Assembly: GCF_016056295.1 (NCBI RefSeq)
Contig: NZ_JAECZB010000092.1
Location: forward strand, 62,001-126,000
Reading direction: 5' to 3'
Length of the DNA stretch: 64,000 nt
From: Atlanticothrix silvestris CENA357
GTDB lineage: Bacteria > Cyanobacteriota > Cyanobacteriia > Cyanobacteriales > Nostocaceae
Shown here: positions 27,867 to 35,107 of the stretch, piece by piece
How positions within the stretch are numbered: the first letter of the stretch is position 1
Layout: every line of letters begins with the position of its first letter
Program-made: the position numbers and the translations under genes
The notes under the pieces: generated by a model
Seen by the model: only the letters and a program-made list of their open reading frames with translations
Databases searched by the model: none
What the model was told of the DNA's origin: nothing

Positions 27867-29270
27867 TTAATTTTGTTCTGGCAGATTACGCAACGGTATA
27901 GGTCGTCCATCATAGAACTGTTTTTGAAGCCTACTCAACCCCAACCATGCAATCCCGAAGGTCAGAGGTGTTAATGTTTCAATCACCACTAATAAAAGGG
28001 ACGTTGTATGGAACAAGAATGCCAAAATTGGAGTGCTGATCAAAGCAACTACTGCTATAGTTCCACACCAAAACCTCAATTGTTGAATTTTAGCAAGTGC
28101 AGCTCTACAACTGGCACAATTTCTTGTATGTGAGTTATACCTTTCTAGCAGCTTATTTTTAGGTAATATTGGTGGTAAACTTTCTCCTGGAAATGGTTCA
28201 GCATTGTATTGGTTAACCCATTGGTGCAATTCAAAAACAAAACTATCTGCTTTTGTAGGTAAATAGAAAGCCTTAGCAAAGTTAGGGCTACCTCCTTTGG
28301 CTGCTAAATAACGTTCTTGATAGTGGAGGAAAATTTGATCATCTTCTAAAACACCGTTTTGTCCAATGTGATAGTACCAGCGTGGTCTCAACTTAATAAA
28401 TAGCCCCGGAAGTTTAGAGGGGAATTTGAAAGGAAAACGAGCAAATAAACGACATTCACCTTTACGAATTGGCGTTGCATAAACAACAGTTAAAATTCTG
28501 CCCCGTTCAGAGTTGATATCATGCCACATTAAACAAGGAGCGACAAAAGTTGTCGATAGTTCTCCCGACTGTCCTGGTTTTATACCTTGCTGCCAAATGC
28601 CTTTGAATCCATGTTTTCCAGATTCAATTACTTCTAGTCCTAAAGCAGTTGCATTGGCCCTATTTCCTACAGTTTGGTGATGTGTGAAAGCTACATGACT
28701 GGGGTCAAGTATATTTTCTAAAAGTGTCAGTGCATCGTAAGGTACATCTCTAAATGTATTAATGACAACCCAGCCATCAGGCGATTCTTCTAAAGGCTCA
28801 ATAATAGGAACTGTTGTTTTTGCAGCATTTTCTGGGTTGCCGACATAAACAAACAGTAATCCTTGCCGTTCAGATGTAGGTAATAATACTGCACATGCTC
28901 GTAAAGAAGTTTCTGCTGTTCCACCTATAGGTTGCTGAGGAATACGCTGGCAACTACCATCTCCAGAGAATGACCAGCCGTGGTATGGACACTCTAATAA
29001 CCCATCGTTGTTAATTCTACCTTCTGAGAGTGGTGCTAAGCGATGAGGACACTGGTCTAAAAATATCTTCCAGGATTTTGCTTGCCTATCCCACCAAATT
29101 ACAATGTCTTTGCCCAACACTGTCAAAGGAGTTGGTTTTGATTTATCTAAATCTTCAACGTAGTGGACGGGATACCATGCTTCTTGCCAATCGAAACAAT
29201 GAGGGTCACTGCCACCAGGGTAAATTTTCTCTACAGAAATATTGCCTACAATAGGCTCTGTATCCAACAT
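27867..29270 (-). CDS. Rieske oxygenase of the pheophorbide-a-oxygenase/Tic55 type
   Basis: 467 residues. The Rieske 2Fe-2S site is CPHRLAPLSEG...LECPYHGWSF (CxH and CxxH, about residues 74-98). The mononuclear iron site is ILDPSHVAFTHHQT. The C-terminus has a CASC motif followed by two hydrophobic spans, as in the PAO/Tic55/PTC52 group. Plant relatives act on chlorophyll breakdown or carry redox signals in the plastid envelope. The cyanobacterial role is not settled. It diverges from the hybrid kinase with starts 62 bp apart. Confidence 0.87.
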   Translation of the reverse strand: MLDTEPIVGNISVEKIYPGGSDPHCFDWQEAWYPVHYVEDLDKSKPTPLTVLGKDIVIWWDRQAKSWKIFLDQCPHRLAPLSEGRINNDGLLECPYHGWSFSGDGSCQRIPQQPIGGTAETSLRACAVLLPTSERQGLLFVYVGNPENAAKTTVPIIEPLEESPDGWVVINTFRDVPYDALTLLENILDPSHVAFTHHQTVGNRANATALGLEVIESGKHGFKGIWQQGIKPGQSGELSTTFVAPCLMWHDINSERGRILTVVYATPIRKGECRLFARFPFKFPSKLPGLFIKLRPRWYYHIGQNGVLEDDQIFLHYQERYLAAKGGSPNFAKAFYLPTKADSFVFELHQWVNQYNAEPFPGESLPPILPKNKLLERYNSHTRNCASCRAALAKIQQLRFWCGTIAVVALISTPILAFLFHTTSLLLVVIETLTPLTFGIAWLGLSRLQKQFYDGRPIPLRNLPEQN

Positions 29271-33711: not shown

Positions 33712-33787
33712 CAAATAATACTATCGGTGTACATCGGCGGTTAATTTCATCTAAATTTGAGCAGTAGTATTTTTTCTGTGCGTCTCA

Positions 33788-33808
33788 ATTACGAATTACG
33801 AATTACGA
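33788..33808. repeat. ATTACGA heptamer array
   Basis: Three tandem ATTACGA units (STRR type). They overlap the last codons and stop of the ion channel pseudogene on the other strand. Confidence 0.85.
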
Positions 33809-34588
33809 ATTGGTAATTTACTGCCACATCTTTTACAAAACCCAGCATCGATATCATGGAAAGCCAAACCGCAACCCGAACAAACAGTTTCTACCTGATT
33901 GACGGTCTTGACTAACCGCTTAATTAAATCTCCCACTTGCCAAGGAATTAAGGCAATGCCTGTGAAAATCATCAATACTGTCAACAGGCGGCCTAATTTA
34001 GAAATCGGGATTACATCGCCAAACCCTACTGTTGTCATTGTGACTACAGAAAAATAGAATGCATCTAAAAATGTACTAAAGTTTTGCGGGTTGACCGGAT
34101 GCTCAACTTGATAAATTAAGCCAGAATATATAAAAACTATGGCGAATAATGTAAACAGTATTCGCGCAAAAATAACACCATCTTCAGTATTAATTTTGGC
34201 AAATAAAAATCTATTATCTATAAATCTAATTAATCTTAAAATTCTGAACCATCGCAGTAAACGAATAAATGTGATATCTACTATTCCCAATAAAAATGGC
34301 AAAATTGCGATTAAATCAATAATTGCATAAAAACTAAATAAAAATATACTTAATTTTATTTTCTGCACTCCAAAAGCGGAGTGCGTACTCTAATGCAAAA
34401 ATTATAAAAATAGCGGTATCAATTATATGCAACTGAAAGCGAACATTGTCAGGAATATTATAGGTTTCTGCTACAAAAATTCCTGATGATAGTAAAACTA
34501 AAGCGGCAATTGCTAAATTAATCGCTTTACCCACTGGTGTTTCTAAGTCTTGTAAGTAAAATTCTGTTTGTTCTCTGCTCAGTAACAT
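33796..34588 (-). pseudogene. Voltage-gated potassium channel split by a frameshift
   Basis: Two overlapping frames together make one six-span channel of about 264 residues. The upstream frame (34588-34334) gives the N-terminus and spans S1-S2, ending EYALRFWSAENKIKYIFI. The downstream frame (34368-33796) resumes at FSFYAIIDLIAILPFLLG. It has an S4 voltage sensor (IRLLRWFRILRLIRF), the selectivity filter TTVGFGD, and a C-terminal zinc-ribbon-like CSGCGLAFHDIDAGFCKRCG. Removing one base in the A/T-rich run around 34345-34352 restores a single frame. This is either a real disabling mutation or a sequencing slip. The rest of the channel is well preserved. Confidence 0.82.
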
Positions 34589-34678
34589 ATTTCACCAGAA
34601 ATAATTTGAATACATTTGCAGAAATCACACTATAAATGCGATATTCTTAACCATTATCCTTATCAACACTCAGACAGT

Positions 34679-35107
34679 ATGAACCACGAATATTTTATGC
34701 ATTTAGCATTGACAGAAGCAAAAAAAGGTGATGCGCCTTATGGTGCAGTGATTGTTAAAGATAATGACGTGGTTGCATTAGCTCATAATACAGTGAGGCG
34801 AGATAGTGATCCATCTGCTCATGCAGAAATTAATGTCATTCGCAGTTTAACAGCTAAACTCAAAAACCCTTCTTTAGAAGGTTATAGCATATACACAACT
34901 GGAGAGCCTTGCCCGATGTGTGCAACAGCTTGTGTTTGGACGGGTATATCAGAAATTATCTATGGTACTTCAATTAAAGATTTGATTTCGATCAAGCAAT
35001 CACAAATTGATTTATCTTGTGAAGAGATAATTGCTAAATCATCTAGAAACATAAAAGTGACGAAAGGCGTTTTAAAAAAGGAATGTTTAGAATTATTTAA
35101 TGAGTGA
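34679..35107 (+). CDS. Nucleoside/guanine deaminase of the CDA superfamily
   Basis: 142 residues from the ATG at 34679. Zinc-binding motifs are SAHAEINVI (HxE) and EPCPMCA (PCxxC). KKGDAPYGAVIVKDNDVVAL near the start resembles guanine deaminase GuaD more than TadA. The true tadA is at 62011. It is close to the response regulator gene, which ends 5 bp away on the other strand. The substrate is probably guanine, but related members deaminate other purines or cytosine. Confidence 0.82.
   Translation: MNHEYFMHLALTEAKKGDAPYGAVIVKDNDVVALAHNTVRRDSDPSAHAEINVIRSLTAKLKNPSLEGYSIYTTGEPCPMCATACVWTGISEIIYGTSIKDLISIKQSQIDLSCEEIIAKSSRNIKVTKGVLKKECLELFNE

Follow-up and report, generated by a model that had tools for sequence, protein, structure and literature searches.

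The gene for a putative voltage-gated potassium channel in Atlanticothrix silvestris CENA357 carries a tandem duplication of four bases, TTTA, which puts its two parts in different reading frames. We analysed this locus within a window of 64,000 nucleotides (the whole stretch of DNA under study), revealing a duplication that is present in the assembly but absent from the aligned relatives, with both halves of the gene intact and free of relaxed selection. The explanation that we consider probable is a very recent duplication that broke a conserved channel gene, leaving an ordinary slippage pseudogene and a strain that has lost the channel. The extra unit would have arisen in the codons of the S2–S3 linker, where the sequence is rich in A/T and replication slippage is its most likely origin, and would create a TAG directly after residue 84, parting S1–S2 from S3–S6 so that no whole subunit could be made.

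The channel gene and its lesion

Two open reading frames (ORFs) on the minus strand, in different frames and overlapping by 35 bases, make up the channel gene. The first (34334–34588, 84 aa) was assigned to S1–S2 of a Kv-type channel from its match to Pfam Ion_trans (PF00520, E = 6.8e-07) and from alignment with relatives, and contains 83 native residues and one frameshifted residue before a TAG stop. The second (33796–34368, 190 aa when read from a GTG) opens with approximately ten frameshifted residues and continues into native S3–S6, the TTVGFGD filter and a C-terminal CxxC...CxxC motif. It matches both Ion_trans_2 (PF07885, E = 2.5e-20) and Ion_trans (E = 2.2e-15), and E-values of this size in the two halves indicate a domain match far beyond chance. 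The best PDB matches of S3–S6 (6uwm, 2a0l and 1orq, E = 2.9e-15 to 4.8e-15) are labelled voltage-gated potassium channel or potassium channel, and we take these entries to be KvAP. A preliminary description of this DNA had placed S1–S2 at 34588–34334 and S3–S6, with the filter and the cysteine motif, at 34368–33796 in another frame; both ORFs were recovered with these contents. Its remark that the sequence downstream of the shift is well conserved also held, with 93% protein identity to the nearest relative (genome G075) over S3 to the end.

Three sequence features characterize the ancestral gene. Both Ion_trans and Ion_trans_2 were matched by all ten intact relatives submitted (10 of the 109 relative loci described below). 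Five S4 arginines (R108, R111, R114, R117 and R120) fall at every third position, are invariant in 10/10 aligned relatives and are present in the window. The selectivity filter is of the TxGxGD type, reading TTVGFGD in the window and in 88/88 relatives. A continuous subunit chain is found at 109/109 relative loci and is absent in the window copy, which is divided between two frames. By its domain, S4 charges and filter, the ancestral gene has the sequence features of a Kv (voltage-gated) potassium channel, and it is best explained as encoding a predicted KvAP-like potassium channel of six helices, whose C-terminal tail is small and zinc-ribbon-like.

The tail (window positions 33796–33900) comes soon after S6, and its CxxC...CxxC motif is kept in 88/88 relatives, while Pfam zinc-ribbon matches are weak: no zinc-ribbon model reached its cut-off on the second ORF, and at E ≤ 0.001 each of the two such families listed was matched by 1/10 intact relatives. 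Of the zinc-ribbon-like tail in the preliminary description, the motif was therefore recovered, while the zinc ribbon itself is a motif-level call only. The tail might possibly serve as a zinc- or redox-sensing gate. A literature search on voltage-gated potassium channels with a zinc ribbon in cyanobacteria gave a single paper, which concerns the SHOCT domain.

The stop codon of the channel is spanned by a heptanucleotide tandem repeat of 3.6 copies (33787–33811, minus strand), which supplies the last residues of the protein and which the nearest relative also carries at its stop. A similar repeat lies at or just past the stop in 4/88 relatives, and the window repeat recurs across this genome, with at least 49 further matches at this part of the query. 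On the other side of the channel lies a divergent neighbour (34616–35107, plus strand) that we presume, from its HAE...PCxxC motif, to be nucleoside-deaminase-like; the arrangement is the same in the nearest relative.

The source of the frame break is TTTATTTA (34335–34342, minus strand), a tandem duplication of a four-base unit. Alignment with 88 distinct relatives showed four extra bases in the window, where two TTTA units stand back to back at 34342–34335. The inserted unit is an exact tandem copy of the adjoining one, and its placement inside this interval is ambiguous, as with any tandem copy. None of the relatives has a base in the four inserted columns of the DNA alignment (0/88 with the extra unit), and in pairwise comparison with G075 (loci L024 and L133) the four bases are the sole gap within the channel coding region. 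The preliminary description had reported a single-base shift at about 34345–34352; we correct the lesion to a 4-bp tandem duplication and its position to 34342–34335. The earlier impression is accounted for by the fact that a gain of four bases gives the same frame change as a gain of one. The TTTA unit was missing from the output of Tandem Repeats Finder, which is uninformative because two copies of four bases fall short of the score limit of that program.

The lesion falls at the codons for residues 83–84, in the S2–S3 linker. A structure model of an intact relative predicts helices at 47–74 and 85–99, although the model is poor (mean pLDDT 51.6) and serves as a rough helix map only. The same four bases could in principle be the footprint of an excised transposon that left a 4-bp target duplication behind, for which slippage is the simpler account.

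Occurrence among relatives and age of the break

We compared reading frames across 112 loci that matched the second half of the channel over at least 120 residues. Overall, S1–S2 and S3–S6 lay in one frame at 109/109 relative loci and in different frames at 3/112, all three of which were copies of the window. The relative loci comprise 29 from a family search and 80 kept of 219 confirmed in a second collection, and the two collections overlap, so they do not amount to 109 different organisms. Merging duplicates and dropping one locus at a contig edge whose sequence was not extractable (L032, included in the 109-locus frame count and absent from the alignment) gave 88 distinct relatives, none of which had an internal stop and all of which carried TTVGFGD and CxxC...CxxC. 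Among the matches listed, the open frames of 149/149 relatives spanned 254–301 aa, compared with 197 aa in the window. Six of these 149 (G071, G040, G035, G204, G208 and G193) had a stop counted within the match, which is probably C-terminal given their open frames of 259–266 aa.

The channel was detected at E ≤ 1e-30 in 201/217 genomes of the family, this one included. Some relatives seem to manage without the channel: the remaining 16 had no match at this threshold, at which more diverged copies could be missed, and 13 of them belong to the 206 genomes with completeness of 90% or more and contamination of 5% or less. In G075, the nearest relative, the locus is collinear and the gene intact. 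A search for further genomes of the genus returned this one alone (1/1). The frame break was thus seen in this genome and in none of the relatives examined.

To assign the differences between the window and G075 to branches, the other relatives served as outgroup, with each half treated on its own (81 and 175 codons) and eight differences left without a branch. The window branch received 24 synonymous and 11 non-synonymous changes (S1–S2, 7:5; S3 to the end, 17:6) and the sister branch 23 and 13 (7:6 and 16:7, respectively), while pairwise dN/dS to G075 was 0.13 for S1–S2 and 0.091 for S3 to the end. Had 10% of the window branch been neutral, 16.2 of its 35 changes would be expected to be non-synonymous (P(≤11) = 0.054); with 20% neutral, the expectation rises to 18.8 of 35 (P(≤11) = 0.007). 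Relaxed selection or further damage was sought in both halves and none was seen. This leaves three possibilities: the break occupies no more than roughly a tenth of the branch, both halves remain under constraint or still work, or the organism itself lacks the break.

Weighing the explanations

We consider it unlikely, though with a chance large enough to be taken seriously, that the extra unit was created by assembly, gap closing or polishing and that the living strain has an intact channel. The duplication is known from a single draft assembly of 113 contigs, the sole genome found for its genus, and unrelaxed selection is equally expected if the break is an artefact. According to Antonov et al. 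(PMC3711429), singleton frameshifts validated by BLAST are expected to reflect errors of sequencing and not true indels. The preliminary description had likewise offered sequencing error, in the form of a miscounted A/T run, as one of three options. That form found no support: outside the added unit, the T runs equal those of the nearest relative (L024), and a single-base or homopolymer error is ruled out by an insertion that consists of a four-base unit, leaving an assembly slip as the form of error to be weighed. The typical error of error-prone reads, should these have been used for this genome, is a homopolymer miscount, unlike a tandem unit of four bases. Assembly completeness is 99.91%, and frame breaks peculiar to this genome are rare, the channel being the only one among 182 orthologues in the approximately 1.05 Mb sampled.

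The latter figure comes from a survey of 1.05 Mb of this genome against 1.52 Mb of G075, begun with 20 orthologues and enlarged to 182 G075 ORFs that have a full-length orthologue here, some of which may be spurious as queries. Frame changes were found in 2/182, namely the channel and a gene that we take to encode a Rieske-type oxygenase. With the latter set aside, the frame breaks of this genome itself come to 1/182. In-frame stops were flagged in 14/182 orthologues when read in this genome and in 10/188 when read in G075, and the reverse survey revealed 2/188 with a frame change in G075 (the Rieske-type gene and one compared against C7:105693–106232 of this genome). The Rieske-type gene is the reverse of the channel case: it is whole here (27867–29270, minus strand, 467 aa) and frame-broken by one base in G075 (L133:15697–17099). 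On balance, a real mutation has better odds than an error, and the duplication would then be present in the living strain rather than in the assembly alone.

A further explanation retains a working channel despite a real break: S1–S2 and S3–S6 could be made as two peptides from the overlapping ORFs through translational coupling and come together in the membrane. We regard this as quite improbable, although it has some basis. The break lies within the S2–S3 linker, a cytoplasmic loop, between the two helices of the low-confidence model, and hERG cut in its S2–S3 linker (PMC6013512) formed functional channels when both halves were expressed and gave no current with either half alone; together, these points keep a split channel conceivable. 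Translational coupling also appears in PMC3711429 as a known class of frame transition. A split channel, if true, would explain the full constraint on both halves, which lack other damage and relaxed selection, but a very recent break accounts equally well for the selection data. Initiation speaks against it: ahead of S3, a search for ATG, GTG and TTG in frame leaves just the GTG at 34368, which sits inside codons for Trp-Ser-Ala and is present out of frame in 76/88 relatives, whose gene is whole, so that it did not evolve as a start. By our reading of the sequence, the GGAG beside this GTG overlaps the start and leaves no Shine–Dalgarno spacing. The split form was, moreover, seen at 0/109 relative loci. 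If true, the locus would be a naturally occurring counterpart of a laboratory construct.

Restoration of the full-length channel by programmed ribosomal frameshifting or transcriptional slippage seems to us highly improbable; programmed slippage was also among the options in the preliminary description. From the sequence, the two frames would be joined, with one extra residue, if a +1 shift occurred immediately ahead of the TAG. However, 109/109 relative loci read through in one frame, the T runs at the site reach five bases at most, and inspection by eye revealed no CTTTGA-like or other known slippery motif there. A programmed frameshift gene would be expected to show a conserved shift site and direction in its homologues, which were seen at 0/109 loci, and the idea of programmed slippage is thus unsupported. 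Equally hard to credit is a phase-variable switch in which the TTTA unit expands and contracts, turning the channel on and off. Some bacteria do use tandem tetranucleotide units as switches, but only two units are present here and the extra unit occurs in 0/88 aligned relatives, so that the multi-unit repeat, variable in copy number across relatives, that such a switch would call for is absent.

A very recent slippage pseudogene is accordingly the explanation we favour, and of the three options in the preliminary description a fresh pseudogene is the best supported, with a clean 4-bp duplication found in this genome alone. Relaxed selection and other damage were not seen; of the features of a recent pseudogene or singleton frameshift, only a break unshared by relatives is present. 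Loss of the channel, which would follow from the break, may be tolerated, given that three other loci in this genome score above the PF07885 cut-off and that 16/217 family genomes are without a match. Among the matches listed in a search of the literature on pseudogenes formed by short tandem duplication in cyanobacteria, nothing concerned this channel. If the locus is a plain recent pseudogene, it would provide a small, clean case of gene loss seen close to the time of the break, for a channel that 201/217 genomes of the family carry.

Comparison with known systems

The channel gene resembles KvAP and other 6TM Kv channels in its ion channel domain, its S4 arginines at every third position and its TTVGFGD filter, and differs in that the frame here is broken between S2 and S3 and the tail has a CxxC...CxxC motif. 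The best NCBIfam match is NF040645 (K_channel_Meth, hyperpolarization-activated voltage-gated potassium channel), with E = 7.6e-24 and 84.7 bits for an intact relative (L067) and E = 6.4e-19 and 68.6 bits for the second ORF of the window. These scores are far below the cut-off of 300 and by that rule the channel is not a member. SynK of Synechocystis (PMC2853561) is likewise a potassium channel of six segments from a cyanobacterium, and its filter is T-X-G-[YFL]-G-D. It is described there without evenly spaced S4 charges and without regulatory domains, whereas S4 of the present family bears five arginines at even spacing and the tail carries a cysteine motif; on this description, the window channel appears to belong to a different family.

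With respect to the break, the locus is similar to GeneTack singleton frameshifted genes and recent pseudogenes, as outlined in PMC3711429, in having one homologue-validated break unshared by the relatives examined, and departs from them in that the lesion is a 4-bp tandem duplication. It also shares the position of its break, in the S2–S3 linker, with the engineered split hERG (PMC6013512). In that construct both halves were deliberately expressed, whereas for the window locus translation of the second half is hypothetical.
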